From positions 62,001 through 126,000 of the IMG/VR virus record IMGVR_UViG_3300024054_000269: 64,000 bases of DNA; one strand, written 5' to 3'. This document shows, one piece after another, positions 43,614 to 63,810 of this stretch. How positions within the stretch are numbered: the stretch's first letter is position 1; each line of letters starts with the position of its first letter. The position numbers and the translations under genes were made by a program. The notes under the pieces were generated by a model that searched no databases, was not told where the DNA came from, and worked only from the letters and a program-made list of their open reading frames with translations. This DNA comes from a virus.

Positions 43614-46600
43614 ATGGTACGTCCGCGTAAAGAACAAATTTTATCAATAAACACTAGACATGCCAGATACACAGCTGATGTGACAGCTGGTACGTCGTTA
43701 ACAACCATTACTGCAGCATCGGTGAACCCATATTTAATAACAGATACGCAAGGTGGAGCGCAGGAAGACTGCCCAGCATTTGTTAGAGGAACAGTTTCAG
43801 AAATTTTTACGATCGTAGCTTCTGACGCAATAAATATAAGTGTTGATGGTGGTTCAACAATAACCGTTACATTTGCTGGAACTGATACTATAGCTTCAAA
43901 AGTTGTTGCCAGAATAAATGGAACTGTTGGGATACCAGCCAATTTTGCCAGAAATGAAAATGGAAAGGTTTTACTAGTTAGTACAACAACCGGTTCTACG
44001 TCGACAATTCAGTTATCTGATTTTGTGGCTGGAACATTAGCAAAATTAGGGTTAACAGCTGGAACTACAACTGGAGCTACAGCACCAATCCGTGGTGTTG
44101 TTACAAAATCTGCTGATTTAAAAGGTGGTTTTGTTAGGCTTTCAAGATCAGAAGGAAACACAATAGTTACGAATGCAGACGAGCTTATTTCTATTAGTAA
44201 TGACATCAAGTTTGGCCATGGATTAACAGCTAACATTAAAGGCGGGCTTCCATTACATGGAAGATTACTACCAAGTGGTTCTAACTATGAATTAAGTTAT
44301 TTCTGTAAAATCCCACAAAGACCAGAAGTTGTAACTGGTGATTCTAGCTTTGCATCGTTAAATGGTACAGATTCATTCACCATAACAGTTTCTGGACCAA
44401 ACGGAATTTTTGGTCCATTCACCATAACATTCCCGGCTTTTCCGTATACGACAGCTGCGTCAATAGCTGATAGAATAAACACTGTGTTTGCTACAACTGC
44501 AAACACAGTCACTGGAACAGGTAATGCATTTGTTGACAGTGTTGAAGTTCAACCGTTCGACATGGAAGGTGGCGATACCTTTTATATATCAATAGATGGC
44601 GGCGTTACAACGCCAGTAACATTTGCTGGAACCGAAGTAACAGCTGCAGACGTGGTAGCGACTATTAACGCTGCACTTGGCGTCACTGGCACAGCTTCAA
44701 CTTATACAGATTTGTTAGGTAATATTTCGTTCAGAATTCAAAGTAATAACACGAATGGTAGAACGTCTTCTGTAGAAATTTTCGGTCCACCTGATAATAT
44801 CACAAAAAAGCTTGGGTTGTCAGTCGGTAAAATACGTGGGTTTATATGTGCAGATTTGTACGGAACACAATCTGTAAAAATATTTTCACCAACACGTGGA
44901 GCTTTAAGTTCACTCGTTATAGGCGGTGTAAACCCAACAACTTTAACACGCATGGGACTGACAGCTGGAACATATCCAGGTTCAGACTCTTATGTGGAAG
45001 AAAGCGTCAATTTACCAGTTGTTAGCGGATTCGCCTCTACTTATACACTTAAATGCTTAATACCAGAAGAATTAGAATTTGGTGAAGTTAACCCAGCAAC
45101 TGAGTCATTTTTAGAAAATTTTGACGATATATCAGCAGGAAATAATAATTCATATTCTGATGATTTGTATGCATCCGGTGCTTATCCGTATTTTGCTGCT
45201 GAGTCAGGTCTTGGAACACAAGGCGGGAAAGATCACGGAAAAGTTGTTTTAGCAAATCATTTTGGGGTACTTGATGAAGATTTATTAGTTCCAGCTCAAA
45301 CTTATGCAAACAGATTTTTCAAAAAATTTCTTAGAACAGCATCAAGTGGTGGATACAGGAGAGGTGAAGTTGCGGCGCTAGTAGCTTCATCTATAGAAAC
45401 CCCAGGTACAAGTGGTAACCCATTACCAACATCAAACATATTCACAGTTGATGTTGATCCAGATAATTCGTATACAGATGCTGAGTTTAGAATTCAAAAA
45501 GACAGACTTGGAACACCAGTTGTTCCGTTCAGAGTAAGGGAACTTGGTGGGGCATCACCGACAGCACTTGATTGGGTTTCCGATGCTGGAACAGGAACAA
45601 TTGATTTTGGATACGGGTCTGTACTCAGCAGATTATGGTTATACGACGTAAATACAATTGCAGCTGGTGGAGCTGAATCAATACCGTTTACAGATGCGAC
45701 ACAAACAGCTTTAAGAATCGGTGACGCGCTTGTAACAAGCGGTCTTTCTTTACTGAAGAAAGTAAACTCAGTTTTTACCATCACATGTGGTGATGGTGTA
45801 AATAGTTTTGGCGATTTCAACGGTGCGAACGCCATACAAGATGCGGTTGCCTACATAATATCAACGATATCATCTGATACATTTAGAATTCAAATAAAAC
45901 AAGGCACGTACACGGTTGACACTGGAGCTGTTAACGTAACTGGAACAATCGATCCAACTAACAGTGGTGCAATATCAAACGCAACTTTCATATTTGAAGC
46001 TGTTGGTCCCAACGCTGTTATAATTGCTTCATCAAATGCAACGGTGTTTGAAGGCGGTATATCAAATAGGCTGGAGTTAATAAATCTTAGAATTGAAACG
46101 TTTACTGCACCGTATTCTAGATTAACAAATATTGGCCAAAATTCAGTTTGTTATGCAACTGGTTGTAGCATAGTTGGTTCTCAAATTAGGGCTGTTGACT
46201 CAGAACGTGTAATATTTGACAAATCTACAATTGATATGTCAGCCGATGCAGCTTGCGATAGGCCAGCTTTTTTGTTTGAGTTTGGCGATGGGGCTGCAGA
46301 CACGCATCAGTTATTCAAGTTTGTAAATTCTAAAATAACATCTGGACAAAACAATCCAATACTTAGAGTTAGAGCAACTGGAGCTGCGGTTTCATATACA
46401 GTTTGTGAATCAATTGTGTTCGAAGATTGCAAACTTTCGACTAAATCAACAACCGTTGATGGCAATGGAAATTTGACTGGAAACTGTGGGATTTTTGATG
46501 TCGACCCGAATGGATCGATTGCAGTTGCTGGTTCAACTGGCGTATTAATCAATAGCCTGAATTTTACTAGATGCGATGTTCAGGCTAACACTTCCTTGGG

Positions 46601-48005
46601 TCCGGTTTCAGTATTGATTCATTTTATACCAACTGCCAATGGAGTTTTCACAAATGCTTCACCTTGGACATTTGGTGTGTCACCGTATCTAGCTGTGAAT
46701 TATTTAACAATAGATGGTGGTGATTGGGTAATTCCTGGCGTAAACACCTCAATAAATCCGTTCACAATAGGTGGTGTTGCCGTCAAGTTGACAATAAACA
46801 ATATTTCGTATGGAACACCACAATCAACTGGCGTTACGCAAGGTGCCGCAACAGCTGATGTTGGTGGATTCTTTACATCGCTAGTAGGCCCGTCAGGCGC
46901 CCCAGCAACAAGTTTCTGGGGGTCGATGGCTTTGTCTGCATTCAACTTGGATCTTGACAACATTAAGATCCACGAGATGACTAGAGCAGGCAATTCTGGG
47001 GATCTATTCGTTTATTGTTTACAAAACTGTAGGATGAAAGACATTAGTATTACTGATTACATTGATGCTGCGCCCGGCTCGGTTCCGAATCAGCGCGTTA
47101 GGTTTAGATTTGGTGATCCGATAGCATATAATACGTTGAACGCAAATATTAAGAGATTGATAATTAAGGGTGCAAATGGAACTGGCAACTGGACAGCTAC
47201 ATCAACTGGCGATAATGACTATGCCATTATCGTGTATGAACCAGTACAAGAAGTGTTTGGTATCAACAAACATGCAGTAACTTTTGAAAATTGTGAAGTT
47301 TCTGATTTCTTAAATGCTACCATTCAAAATAGCATTGGGTTTGCATTTCATGATATAGCCGGTGGTGCATTGTTCGGAACTGGACTTGGTGTGAATGGGA
47401 CAATGTTTACTGGTGTTAAATTAATAAATAATAAATTTGACCAAAACACAGTTGGTATAAGTTATGTTAATTCAAACACTGTTGTCAGAAATTTGGAAAT
47501 AATAGATAATAAAATAACAAATTGTTCAGATTGGGGCGTGTATTTATATGATACTACCACAGATGCGTTAGGTCTTTTGACAATAAATGATAATAGGATT
47601 TTTAACTGCGGAAATACGTCTGGCAGAGAAGGCATCTATGTGAATACAGCAGATTGGGATAACACTTATTTGATTATGAATCATAATTACGTGCACAATA
47701 ATAACACGGCAGTTACAGGCATACAGGTGAATATTATAAATAGTGCTATTCCTGGTTCGACATCACCCAGGGGTGTTGTCATGGGTAATTCAGCAAGAGC
47801 TAGCACTGGATTTGTTGGACAATTCAGAATACAAACCAACAACACGCCAACACTCATAACTGGTACATACCCGGCTGCTTTTACGCCAGCTGGTGAGCCA
47901 TTTAGAGGTGTTGAGACAGGGTACGTTGGCGGAGCTGCTCCAGGTGATAGTAGATATTTCCAGCCTGCTACACCAATGTTCCATAATGACGCGACATTGA
48001 CATAA
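43614..48005 (+). CDS. Tailspike-like protein with hook-IN-like modules and right-handed beta-helix, 1463 aa
   Basis: The ATG at 43614 follows GAGGAAAGACA, a good ribosome binding site. Residues about 65-155 and 310-405 are hook-IN/flagellin-IN-like modules (ISVDGGSTITVTFAG, TIASKVVARIN, a Gly/Thr loop, then LGLTAGT), with further partial copies. Residues from about 720 form a probable right-handed parallel beta-helix: GDFNGANAIQDAVAYI, GTYTVDTG, then many short strands with Asn ladders (NKITNCSDWGVYLYDT, NRIFNCGNTSGREGIYV, NYVHNNNTAVTG). Such folds occur in polysaccharide-degrading tailspikes. Catalytic residues cannot be assigned from sequence alone. Probable receptor-binding spike acting on surface glycans. 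Confidence 0.75.
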   Translation: MVRPRKEQILSINTRHARYTADVTAGTSLTTITAASVNPYLITDTQGGAQEDCPAFVRGTVSEIFTIVASDAINISVDGGSTITVTFAGTDTIASKVVARINGTVGIPANFARNENGKVLLVSTTTGSTSTIQLSDFVAGTLAKLGLTAGTTTGATAPIRGVVTKSADLKGGFVRLSRSEGNTIVTNADELISISNDIKFGHGLTANIKGGLPLHGRLLPSGSNYELSYFCKIPQRPEVVTGDSSFASLNGTDSFTITVSGPNGIFGPFTITFPAFPYTTAASIADRINTVFATTANTVTGTGNAFVDSVEVQPFDMEGGDTFYISIDGGVTTPVTFAGTEVTAADVVATINAALGVTGTASTYTDLLGNISFRIQSNNTNGRTSSVEIFGPPDNITKKLGLSVGKIRGFICADLYGTQSVKIFSPTRGALSSLVIGGVNPTTLTRMGLTAGTYPGSDSYVEESVNLPVVSGFASTYTLKCLIPEELEFGEVNPATESFLENFDDISAGNNNSYSDDLYASGAYPYFAAESGLGTQGGKDHGKVVLANHFGVLDEDLLVPAQTYANRFFKKFLRTASSGGYRRGEVAALVASSIETPGTSGNPLPTSNIFTVDVDPDNSYTDAEFRIQKDRLGTPVVPFRVRELGGASPTALDWVSDAGTGTIDFGYGSVLSRLWLYDVNTIAAGGAESIPFTDATQTALRIGDALVTSGLSLLKKVNSVFTITCGDGVNSFGDFNGANAIQDAVAYIISTISSDTFRIQIKQGTYTVDTGAVNVTGTIDPTNSGAISNATFIFEAVGPNAVIIASSNATVFEGGISNRLELINLRIETFTAPYSRLTNIGQNSVCYATGCSIVGSQIRAVDSERVIFDKSTIDMSADAACDRPAFLFEFGDGAADTHQLFKFVNSKITSGQNNPILRVRATGAAVSYTVCESIVFEDCKLSTKSTTVDGNGNLTGNCGIFDVDPNGSIAVAGSTGVLINSLNFTRCDVQANTSLGPVSVLIHFIPTANGVFTNASPWTFGVSPYLAVNYLTIDGGDWVIPGVNTSINPFTIGGVAVKLTINNISYGTPQSTGVTQGAATADVGGFFTSLVGPSGAPATSFWGSMALSAFNLDLDNIKIHEMTRAGNSGDLFVYCLQNCRMKDISITDYIDAAPGSVPNQRVRFRFGDPIAYNTLNANIKRLIIKGANGTGNWTATSTGDNDYAIIVYEPVQEVFGINKHAVTFENCEVSDFLNATIQNSIGFAFHDIAGGALFGTGLGVNGTMFTGVKLINNKFDQNTVGISYVNSNTVVRNLEIIDNKITNCSDWGVYLYDTTTDALGLLTINDNRIFNCGNTSGREGIYVNTADWDNTYLIMNHNYVHNNNTAVTGIQVNIINSAIPGSTSPRGVVMGNSARASTGFVGQFRIQTNNTPTLITGTYPAAFTPAGEPFRGVETGYVGGAAPGDSRYFQPATPMFHNDATLT

Positions 48006-48068
48006 ATTATTTCAATGTATTTTGTAAATAGATACTTATAGTGGGTATCTGCTCCAGAAGGAGTAGAG

Positions 48069-49067
48069 ATGAAAACAAAACATAGTCTTCTTTTGGTTCC
48101 TTTTGGTTTCTTTGTGTTTTTAGCGTGTGGTGGTGGTGGTGACGAGACGGGTTTGACAAAAGCGTCTTCTGGCGGTCAAGCCGGGGCGTCTTCTGGCGGT
48201 CAAGCCGGCTCTGGGTCTGGCGGTCAAGCCGGTGGTCAGTCCGGGTCTGGCGGTCAAGCTGGAAACACTGGAGGGTCTGCTGGATCTGTTATCGATTCGG
48301 GATCTGATGTTATCGATTCGGGATCTGATGCCATACTTGATTACAATCAAGATATTTTGACTGATTCACAGTCTGATGTTGAAGCATGCGTCCCCCAACC
48401 ATGCGCAAATGACGGCAAGACTTGTGGTAGTCTTCCAGACGGTTGTGGTGGGATGTCTAAATGTTTGTACCAGTGTTCTTATCCAAAAACTTGTGGTGGC
48501 AATCCGAATGACCCTAATGGGTGCTATTGCAAAATGAAAACACAAACTGAAATAAATTCTGTTTGTGCTACATATAGCTGTACTGATGGTGCGAGCGTTT
48601 CAGACCCGTGTGCTAACGGTGGTGCCGTTTCGTGTCTTCTTTATCCAAATCAGAAACGATGTAAGTATTTGCAGACATGTAAAGACGCTGGCGCAACCCC
48701 GACAGATTTTACTTGCCAGGGATGCACAGACAGTAGCATCGACACTGGTTGTTCACAAAATCAACCATTTGCTTATACATGCCCTGGAAATGTGACACCA
48801 CCAACTAGTGAATGCACATGGAATTCCTCCACTCAGAAATGGTGTTGCAAAAAGAATACGGCTGGTTGTTTTGTCCAGTTTGAAGAAACTTCATGCAATC
48901 CAACATTTGGATGCACATGTCCGGCCGGTAAGAAGGTTGTTTTTGATTGTGGTGCTTTTGGTACGAATCCTATTGCTAATGATTTGATGCCCCAGTTTGG
49001 ATGCATCAAATCTACAAATCAATACGCACTTGATAAGTGGTGTTGCCCAACTAATTCTGTTGGTTGA
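48069..49067 (+). CDS. Myxobacterial-type Cys-rich outer lipoprotein, 332 aa
   Basis: Starts at ATG 48069 with a strong Shine-Dalgarno (AAGGAG, 5-6 bases upstream). Residues 1-19 are a signal peptide and FLAC (17-20) is a lipobox, so Cys20 would be lipidated. A Gly/Ser/Gln linker of about five SGGQAG units (residues 33-65) follows, then a duplicated VIDSGSD, then a Cys-rich domain with C-x4-C-x6-C and DGCGG (residues about 107-136) and several more Cys pairs. This architecture is typical of lipoproteins in Myxococcota (established for that group in general terms). It is not a tail protein: it is placed alone, followed by an intrinsic terminator. Likely a cargo gene acting on the host surface, for example receptor masking or superinfection exclusion (inference). 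Confidence 0.85.
   Translation: MKTKHSLLLVPFGFFVFLACGGGGDETGLTKASSGGQAGASSGGQAGSGSGGQAGGQSGSGGQAGNTGGSAGSVIDSGSDVIDSGSDAILDYNQDILTDSQSDVEACVPQPCANDGKTCGSLPDGCGGMSKCLYQCSYPKTCGGNPNDPNGCYCKMKTQTEINSVCATYSCTDGASVSDPCANGGAVSCLLYPNQKRCKYLQTCKDAGATPTDFTCQGCTDSSIDTGCSQNQPFAYTCPGNVTPPTSECTWNSSTQKWCCKKNTAGCFVQFEETSCNPTFGCTCPAGKKVVFDCGAFGTNPIANDLMPQFGCIKSTNQYALDKWCCPTNSVG
48165..48263 (+). repeat. SGGQAG-coding repeats in the lipoprotein linker
   Basis: Five near-copies of a segment containing TCTGGCGGTCAAGCCGG, noticeably richer in G and C than the surrounding phage DNA. They encode the flexible Gly/Ser/Gln linker after the lipidation site. The copies are similar enough to allow slippage. Confidence 0.85.
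48288..48329 (+). repeat. 21-bp perfect tandem duplication (VIDSGSD twice)
   Basis: Two exact 21-base copies (48288-48308 and 48309-48329) encoding VIDSGSD twice at the end of the lipoprotein linker. Perfect identity points to a recent duplication. Confidence 0.9.
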
Positions 49068-49070
49068 TAG

Positions 49071-49108
49071 AAAGCCCTGATAGGAGTAAATCTCCTATCA
49101 GGGCTTTT
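49071..49108 (+). terminator. Rho-independent terminator after the lipoprotein gene
   Basis: A perfect 16-bp stem (49071-49086 pairing with 49092-49107) with a 5-base loop (49087-49091). It ends in TTTT (49105-49108). It begins 4 bases after the lipoprotein stop and ends 5 bases before the next ATG. The A-rich left side means it may also work weakly on the other strand. Confidence 0.9.
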
Positions 49109-49112
49109 CCAT

Positions 49113-49619
49113 ATGAAAAAATTATGGTTGTATTTGAAAGCCCTTGGTAAAAGATTATTTCAAATAATAATAAGATACCCGTTAGCAACAGCTTTAACTG
49201 TTTTGTTAGTAATTGGTACGATGTTTCTGTTAATTTTTGGCCAAAAAGTACAAATCGGTGGTTTACTTGGTTCAATATGGGGCAAGAAAAAAATAAACTC
49301 TAGAGCCATCCCACCAGAAGACAGAAAAGATAAAGATGGCAAGCCAATCCAACCTGGTGAATCAGACGACAAAGGATACGTACAAGCGCCAGTATCAACA
49401 AAAATAAAGGAACCAACAATTTTTTCAGACCCGAATGTTGTTGAAATTGAAGAACAAAATGGTGAAGTTAAAAAAATACCGTTACCAACGGGTGTGTCAA
49501 ATACTGATGTACGAGAAGTGACAAAAATTTCACCAAATATATATGAAGTAAAAAACAAAGATAAAGGAACAAAAAAAGAAGAACTATCAACTCTAATAGA
49601 ATTATTGGGGGATAAATGA
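49113..49619 (+). CDS. Inner-membrane-anchored protein, 168 aa
   Basis: The ATG at 49113 follows directly on the terminator. Residues 1-20 are basic, then a single membrane helix at about 24-43 (ALTVLLVIGTMFLLIF), then a hydrophilic Lys/Asp/Pro-rich domain, presumably periplasmic (N-in, C-out by the positive-inside rule). The soluble part ends in a helix. The gene overlaps the next by 4 bases (ATGA), and that protein looks periplasmic or outer-membrane, so the pair resembles a two-gene envelope unit such as a spanin pair, but the coiled coil typical of an i-spanin is missing. Function is therefore open. Confidence 0.65.
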   Translation: MKKLWLYLKALGKRLFQIIIRYPLATALTVLLVIGTMFLLIFGQKVQIGGLLGSIWGKKKINSRAIPPEDRKDKDGKPIQPGESDDKGYVQAPVSTKIKEPTIFSDPNVVEIEEQNGEVKKIPLPTGVSNTDVREVTKISPNIYEVKNKDKGTKKEELSTLIELLGDK

Positions 49620-50230
49620 TCCCATTACTAATTTTGATGCAACAAGACCCAGTTAATGTTAACGCAGCGGTTGTGCCGCAACCGGAAGAACAAGTTTGTA
49701 TAAATAAAGAAGAAGCAGACAAGTTAGCTCAGGCTTTAAGAGAATACAAGAATATAAAAGAATCACCAGCTAAGTTGGAAATGAAAGAACCAATCATAAT
49801 TATTCGTGATTGGGAAGACAGAGTATATGTAAATGGTGGTGAAAAAAGTCCAATAAAACTCAGATTGAGGATAGGTGAATATGTTGATAGAGAATTTGAA
49901 GCAGTTTTTCCCGTCCAGGTTTTTTACAGAGAAGAACCTCCAGATCCGCCATTCAGACTAAGAATAAAAGCACAAGCCGGTTTTCTTTTGCCGCAGTTAT
50001 TTACGGCTGTGAAAGATGGCGGTGTTGACTCAACTATTGACATGGGCATAGCGTTTGATTTTTTCCACTACGGACCAGTGAACATAAATATTTATACTGG
50101 CATAAGAAGTATCGGAGCGGGCCTTGGTTTTGACATAACTAAAAATTTTGGTGTGTATAGCGGTTATGCTCTATCATATAGAGGTTTAGAATCTGGTGCT
50201 TTGACTGGCGTATTCTTTAGTTTTAATTAA
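49616..50230 (+). CDS. Envelope protein with beta-barrel-like C-terminus, 204 aa
   Basis: ATGA overlap with the membrane protein gene. The N-terminus (MIPLLILMQQ) is a short hydrophobic stretch that could be a weak signal sequence. Residues about 24-50 form an acidic/basic helix with one Cys (VCINKEEADKLAQALREY). The C-terminal half shows alternating strands ending in aromatic residues (FRLRIKAQAGFLL, MGIAFDFFHYG, NINIYTGIRSIGAGLGF, FGVYSGYALSYRG, GVFFSFN), typical of a small outer-membrane barrel. With its partner it may span the envelope for lysis or for host-surface change. No family is recognised. Confidence 0.65.
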   Translation: MIPLLILMQQDPVNVNAAVVPQPEEQVCINKEEADKLAQALREYKNIKESPAKLEMKEPIIIIRDWEDRVYVNGGEKSPIKLRLRIGEYVDREFEAVFPVQVFYREEPPDPPFRLRIKAQAGFLLPQLFTAVKDGGVDSTIDMGIAFDFFHYGPVNINIYTGIRSIGAGLGFDITKNFGVYSGYALSYRGLESGALTGVFFSFN

Positions 50231-62588: not shown

Positions 62589-62814
62589 TTTTCCATTTAG
62601 AAATACTTTCAATAAAACTGTTTATCGATTTATCCAAATTTTCTTTTGACATTTCATTTTTTAACAAAATTGTTAAATTGCCTCTAATTAGCGATAATCC
62701 AGTTGTTGGGTTTTTCAGCAGTTCCCAACATCCCTTGCAGACATATAAATTGGAACCGTCTTCATCTTTTCCCCTAAATTCACCGTCATTCACACAAAAA
62801 TAACATGTGTTCAT
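62578..62814 (-). CDS. Zinc-ribbon-like small protein, 78 aa
   Basis: Two CxxC pairs (CYFC at residues 4-7 and CKGC at 26-29) in an N-terminal ribbon, followed by a helical C-terminus (ENLDKSINSFIESISKW). It overlaps the upstream minus gene by 4 bases (62811-62814, ATGA), so it is cotranslated with the YkgJ-like gene. Plausible zinc ribbon of unknown function, perhaps nucleic acid binding. Confidence 0.6.
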   Translation of the reverse strand: MNTCYFCVNDGEFRGKDEDGSNLYVCKGCWELLKNPTTGLSLIRGNLTILLKNEMSKENLDKSINSFIESISKWKIKD

Positions 62815-63416
62815 TGATTAAACTCATTAAATAAAATTGACACCACCTGCTCTATGTCTTTATTAGACTGAGAATATATATTTTCAGCAAAAATTAGCGC
62901 CATTGGTATTGGTAATTTTATTTTAAGAACACCATACGAATCGATTTTTGAATTTATTAGCTTATCAAATTCCAACATTATTTCATCCATGTCAACTGGT
63001 TTATACAGACCGGTCTCACTACTCCATGGGTTGCAATATTCAGGATTTGATGAAACAAAATGTGTTGAACACGTCGGCGGCCTAACCGGATAAGCTGAAC
63101 ATTCACCTTTTTCGTTTAAGACCGGGCATTTTATATTCATTTTAAACCATGATACTGGATTAGAATTTCTAATAACTTTAATTTGATCCAACGATTTAAC
63201 TTTGGTTATTTTCCATTGATTATTGAGTAAATATTCATACATAATTATTGCTTCAGCGACTGTTATGTATAATAATCGGCTACAACAGCCATTGCATCCA
63301 ACCTTGCAAGATATAACGTCTTTGTAAATTGAAAGTCTTTTTTTATCTGACTTGTAAGCCGATTCTATTATTGATAATTTAATCGAATTTAAAGCTTGAG
63401 ACAGTTGAAAGTTCAA
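62811..63416 (-). CDS. YkgJ-family-like zinc/iron-binding Cys-cluster protein, 201 aa
   Basis: Shows the family outline: CKVGCNGCC (C37, C41, C44, C45) with ITVAEA following, then CPVLNEKGECSAYPVRPPTC (C97, C106, C116) and a later Cys (C128). This is the layout of YkgJ/UPF0153 proteins, thought to bind zinc or iron. In bacteria their role is unclear. In this phage it lies in a minus-strand operon with a zinc-ribbon protein, and a small gene lies just upstream. Role in the phage unknown; possibly metal handling or modification. Confidence 0.75.
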   Translation of the reverse strand: MNFQLSQALNSIKLSIIESAYKSDKKRLSIYKDVISCKVGCNGCCSRLLYITVAEAIIMYEYLLNNQWKITKVKSLDQIKVIRNSNPVSWFKMNIKCPVLNEKGECSAYPVRPPTCSTHFVSSNPEYCNPWSSETGLYKPVDMDEIMLEFDKLINSKIDSYGVLKIKLPIPMALIFAENIYSQSNKDIEQVVSILFNEFNQ

Positions 63417-63772: not shown

Positions 63773-63810
63773 CTTCCTTTGGCGGTTCTATATAGAACCG
63801 CCAAAGGAAG
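63773..63810 (-). promoter_or_regulatory. 38-bp perfect palindrome in the intergenic gap
   Basis: All 19 base pairs match about the centre 63791/63792, with no mismatch, leaving a small loop of CTATATAG-type sequence. It sits 9 bases after the stop of the partial gene at the window end and 12 bases before the start of the 111-aa gene, on the minus strand. There is no T tract on either side, so it is not a classical terminator. It could be an operator, a T-less terminator or an RNA-processing hairpin. Confidence 0.85.

Follow-up and report, generated by a model that had tools for sequence, protein, structure and literature searches.

The DNA analysed here, called the window, is a stretch of 64,000 nucleotides corresponding to positions 62001-126000 of a 182,302-bp (~182 kb) virus record. 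It carries an intact reading frame with an ATG start for a cysteine-rich protein (31 Cys in 332 aa), which was recovered at the same place in the whole record. As described in the first-pass annotation, this gene lies between a putative tailspike gene and a membrane/envelope pair. The features of the locus are as follows.

43614-48005, + strand: putative tailspike/receptor-binding gene (1463 aa), directly upstream, assigned by position and sequence style
48056-48063, + strand: ribosome binding site AGAAGGAG, 5 nt before the ATG, read directly
48069-49067, + strand: 332-aa Cys-rich lipoprotein gene, called as an ORF in the window and in the whole record
48069-48128, + strand: lipoprotein signal peptide by sequence pattern, with lipobox FLAC, Cys20 and Gly at +2
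48162-48287, + strand: SGGQAG-type Gly/Ser/Gln linker with 24-bp DNA repeats, from repeat search
48288-48329, + strand: two copies of VIDSGSD in identical 21-bp DNA repeats, from repeat search and sequence
48381-48500, + strand: Myxococcota-type DGCGG Cys module, residues 105-144, from profile score and genome distribution
48534-48722, + strand: middle Cys-rich segment, residues 156-218; a search for relatives found none
48747-48848, + strand: first WCC-ending unit, residues 227-260, for which a small beta domain is predicted, with local pLDDT of about 71-81 over part of it
48909-49046, + strand: second WCC-ending unit, residues 281-326, from sequence comparison and structure prediction
49070-49108, + strand: perfect 17-bp stem-loop with a 5-nt loop, probable terminator with a weak U-tract, from stem-loop search
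49113-49619, + strand: 168-aa protein with an N-terminal transmembrane segment, first of the envelope pair; ORF call without significant family match
49616-50230, + strand: 204-aa protein whose start overlaps the preceding stop (ATGA), possible spanin-like partner; ORF call without significant family match

The strong ribosome binding site claimed for the lipoprotein gene was borne out, whereas the "perfect intrinsic terminator" was only partly so: the 17-bp stem is indeed perfect, but the T-run is only TTTT, partly within the stem, and the structure is absent from the list of the terminator scanner. A second perfect 17-bp stem-loop (4-nt loop) of similar form lies in an intergenic position at 63773-63810 of the window.

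The protein elements that had been read from the sequence are all present, namely the lipobox, the SGGQAG linker, the doubled VIDSGSD and the Cys-rich part with DGCGG. By pattern reading, FLAC occupies residues 17-20 and is preceded by MKTKHS and a hydrophobic stretch, that is, a lipobox after an N-terminal hydrophobic signal as in the Myxococcota-type DGCGG lipoproteins. SGGQAG occurs four times, and the linker between lipobox and module spans 86 residues, 84% of which are G/S/A/D/T/N/Q/P. The repeats at the DNA level suggest recent changes in the length of this stalk, and not a recent arrival of the gene. DGCGG itself corresponds to residues 124-128, and the second WCC unit may be a divergent copy of the first. 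An AlphaFold model made without an alignment had a mean pLDDT of 44.7, with local confidence in the first WCC unit only, and a Foldseek search of the PDB with this model returned nothing meaningful.

Direct comparison of the protein with Pfam, PHROGs, NCBIfam and PDB sequences gave no match, no close relatives were found in IMG/VR, phages or plasmids, and tblastn against 50,697 phage records gave no match at E 0.1. All GTDB species genomes, across every phylum in the collection, were scanned with an alignment (A1) of the Cys-rich part; apart from the phage row, only conserved positions were left unmasked. As the module letters of those further rows were those of the myxobacterial motif, the scan favours that motif. 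Tblastn against the phage lipoprotein confirmed 89 stretches and, among the 80 of these that were listed, nearly all came from Myxococcota or "Deltaproteobacteria" MAGs, with one Acidobacteria MAG and one Rokubacteria MAG. From the scan loci, 26 real Myxococcota-type modules were collected into a profile with the phage query left out. Residues 105-144 of the phage protein, which carry the C-x4-C-x6-CG-x3-DGCGG pattern and are 44-57% identical to the sampled modules, scored 50.7 bits against this profile (E 1.8e-15 when searched among the ORFs of this phage), compared with -38 bits for the best of 2000 shuffles. The architecture is therefore not a product of chance.

The module is concentrated in Myxococcota, as judged from three sampled phyla together with the pattern scan of all GTDB. 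With alignment A3 and E <= 1e-5, it was detected in 61 of the 189 sampled genomes of this phylum (that of Minicystis rosea), often in many copies, compared with 4/199 genomes in the phylum of the Acidobacteria MAG (Acidobacteriota) and 1/95 in that of the Rokubacteria MAG, the latter two counts including the seed genome. At the fetched loci, a lipobox precedes the module in 47 of 85 module ORFs, mostly followed by a Gly/Asp/Ser linker, and the order lipobox, Gly/Ser/Asp linker, module recurs in dozens of Myxococcota proteins. Linker composition is also similar, with a median of 79.5% G/S/A/D/T/N/Q/P in the cellular proteins (n=58) versus 84% in the phage. The phage protein thus shares with Myxococcota lipoproteins such as those of L011 (Nannocystis), L028, L040 and L066 the lipobox, the Gly/Ser/Asp-rich linker and a C-x4-C-x6-CG-x3-DGCGG-C-C-TCGG module. 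It differs from most of them in having a single module, where they are longer and carry several in tandem; tandem modules are common but not universal in the cellular members, and cellular ORFs with a single DGCGG also exist. A further difference lies in the middle Cys segment and the WCC units, which have no known relative.

Taken together, the profile score, the phylum counts and the shared domain order support well the view that residues 1-155, and only these, follow a Myxococcota lipoprotein design (lipobox, Gly/Ser/Asp linker and C-x4-C-x6-CG-x3-DGCGG module), the match at the level of sequence being limited to ~40 residues (105-144). The earlier reading of the protein as Myxococcota-type, for which a search with the Cys-rich part (residues 100-332) had been proposed, was upheld in part: residues 105-144 match Myxococcota, but for residues 156-332, which make up most of that part, neither the 237 Myxococcota genomes nor any other source yielded a detectable relative. 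Matches confined to phage structural proteins or to unrelated phyla, foreseen as the outcome contrary to this claim, did not arise, and lipoprotein relatives were found in Myxococcota. The weak matches to the C-terminal half in the 237 genomes were set aside as chance, those that aligned being out of frame or mismatched at the Cys positions.

The gene had also been proposed to be taken from, or active in, such a host; a recent capture is not shown by its codon use. Its raw codon fit was 0.08, against 0.174-0.293, but after correction for amino-acid make-up it was only the 15th most deviant of all 110 genes (z -2.5, spread 2.4), close to one spread from the median. As the raw outlier vanished, the notion of a recent foreign gene was dropped; corrected codon use within the spread of the phage makes a long-kept gene probable, one that has probably had time to adapt in this phage or in genomes of low G+C. 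The window has about 36% G+C, while the loci of related phages have 53-65% and the loci of the module relatives a median of 69%.

The lipoprotein had been called the best clue to the host in the window, and we found no better one; it points to Myxococcota, and we consider a host in this phylum fairly probable. The difference between 36% and 69% G+C counts against it. To seek a host link, we searched 331 Myxococcota genomes for the fibre gene of the phage and found none, but this is a weak test and uninformative.

The genomic setting is that of a variable slot that recurs in a clade of large phages. In LR745208 (485 kb) and several IMG/VR contigs the order is kept as tail fibre, SNF2 helicase, 270-aa protein, DnaB-like helicase, further genes and DNA polymerase, with an interval between fibre and helicase that varies from 28 bp in L166 to three small ORFs in L163 and a holin-like gene with others in L160. 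In the present phage, a second, tailspike-like gene occupies this interval together with the lipoprotein gene and the envelope pair (window 43614-50230). No DGCGG module was found in the related phage records searched. Given the variable interval and the absence of the gene from relatives, the lipoprotein gene lies where cargo would be expected. The LR745208 helicase (just after the Walker A region) and DNA polymerase contain long intein-like inserts (L121 18204-21197 and 28785-34061), which are missing from the helicase and DNA polymerase of the present phage.

Searches of IMG/VR and phages found relatives neither of the tailspike-like protein, which matched no family, nor of the product of 49616-50230. 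The latter protein combines a start resembling a signal with a stretch of coiled-coil character and a C-terminus rich in strands; its AlphaFold model (pLDDT 30.8) was unusable. It is plausible that the overlapping genes at 49113 and 49616 form an unrecognised spanin pair, and they are better candidates for this than the lipoprotein gene.

Several other genes of the phage were noted. It encodes a sigma-70 factor comprising regions 2, 3 and 4 (L006:8554-9618, minus strand), through which it might specify late promoters of its own. There are, in order, an RRM protein (L007:9177-9587, minus strand), a VanW-like protein (L006:15678-16667, minus strand), a patatin phospholipase (L002:11128-11997) and a GDP-mannose dehydratase/epimerase (L002:3045-4022). 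A protein with a CxxCxxCC putative metal-chelating domain (PF03692) is encoded at 62811-63416 of the window (minus strand). By eye, unrelated ORFs (L006:16885-17274, L007:1730-2149, L003:4296-4832 and L008:13837-14202) share a start of the type "...IAxKIA/RIAxKI", perhaps a common propeptide or targeting tag.

What might such a protein do? The first-pass annotation proposed that it may change the host surface or exclude other phages, roles that are still inferences. The known exclusion lipoproteins of phages are small, have one disulfide and act from the periplasmic face. In T5, the gene of the lipoprotein Llp, which inactivates the receptor FhuA, adjoins and lies downstream of the receptor-binding gene pb5 (PMC9586334), and Rtp45 of phage Rtp, of ~6 kDa, blocks the outer-membrane receptor LptDE in a similar way (PMC12685063). 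The present protein resembles Llp and Cor in being a phage-encoded lipoprotein, and its gene lies directly downstream of a tailspike-like gene whose receptor-binding role is putative, family searches having matched nothing. Its product shares with Rtp45, which acts at an outer-membrane receptor, the nature of a phage lipoprotein. Nevertheless, Llp and Cor are small with a single disulfide, and Rtp45 is about 6 kDa with one disulfide, in contrast to 332 aa and 31 Cys here, and tblastn over the 50,697 phage records (E 0.1) revealed no sequence similarity to Llp/Cor or Rtp45. Because of its size, its Cys number and this absence of similarity, the protein should not be called a member of the Llp/Cor group.

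Given the position directly behind the putative tailspike and the analogy with T5 Llp and Rtp45, we tentatively favour, as one possibility, a Myxococcota-type outer-membrane lipoprotein, made in a likely Myxococcota host, that would mask or alter the receptor of the upstream spike or the nearby surface. The protein would be exported in the host, its signal peptide cut at Cys20 and this Cys lipidated. Under the E. coli rule, Gly at +2 corresponds to outer-membrane sorting, and the protein might be kept at this membrane, where the flexible Gly/Ser/Asp stalk would carry a disulfide-rich head composed of one DGCGG module and two WCC units, probably held by disulfides. Masking of the receptor of the putative tailspike, or of the surface around it, might keep later phages off and spare the progeny from sticking to debris. 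A bolder extension, which we regard as improbable, is that large Myxococcota-infecting phages possess a novel class of surface-display exclusion proteins, combining the host disulfide-module design with phage-specific WCC domains and a length-variable stalk, that mask from outside and maybe spread to neighbours by outer-membrane exchange.

The same gene might instead encode a surface protein of the lytic-conversion type, a host-like adhesin or shield on the infected cell that alters cell-cell contact, predation or protease resistance and leaves phage adsorption unaffected. This would agree with a design matching abundant host lipoproteins and with a long flexible stalk whose DNA repeats are able to vary in length; however, a large phage that looks lytic would gain little from altered social behaviour, and the host families have no known function. 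We consider it unlikely, though by no means negligible. Somewhat harder to accept is an unselected passenger, a captured host gene sitting in a hotspot for insertions that separates fibre from helicase genes. The absence of the gene from related phages and the differing content of the junction among relatives speak for it; against it stand the intact frame of 332 codons, the strong ribosome binding site, the gene's own stem-loop and a codon use within the spread of the phage, which makes long retention probable.

A role in lysis, in which the protein would act as an o-spanin-like outer-membrane lipoprotein together with the adjoining envelope pair, appears improbable. The lipobox, the overlap of the next two genes, as often seen in spanin genes, and a holin-like gene at the matching junction of LR745208 (a weak match, E 0.0075) speak for it. 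On the other hand, the lipoprotein gene is neither paired with nor embedded in a partner as an o-spanin gene would be, being separated from the pair by 45 bp that include the 17-bp stem-loop; 332 aa and 31 Cys are unlike o-spanins, and the proteins related to it by the module are lipoproteins of cells and not proteins of lysis. Finally, the short match of ~40 residues and a remainder without relatives could mean that the Cys-rich ORF arose by chance, or that it encodes a structural protein of the phage, with no true Myxococcota link. We find this very hard to credit in view of 50.7 bits versus -38 for the best shuffle, the strong phylum bias (61/189 versus 4/199 and 1/95) and the intact signal peptide and ribosome binding site, and it is contradicted by the same domain order in Myxococcota proteins.

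To conclude, the taxonomic reading survived a fair test, and the protein is a phage-borne lipoprotein. Few Myxococcota phages have been isolated, and most large phages known from metagenomes lack an identified host; an envelope gene of host type provides a testable host link for such a phage. If the exclusion role of the lipoprotein is true, the superinfection-exclusion lipoproteins, so far small plugs in the periplasm, would come to include large surface proteins rich in disulfides, and cargo genes would also offer a route to host identity.
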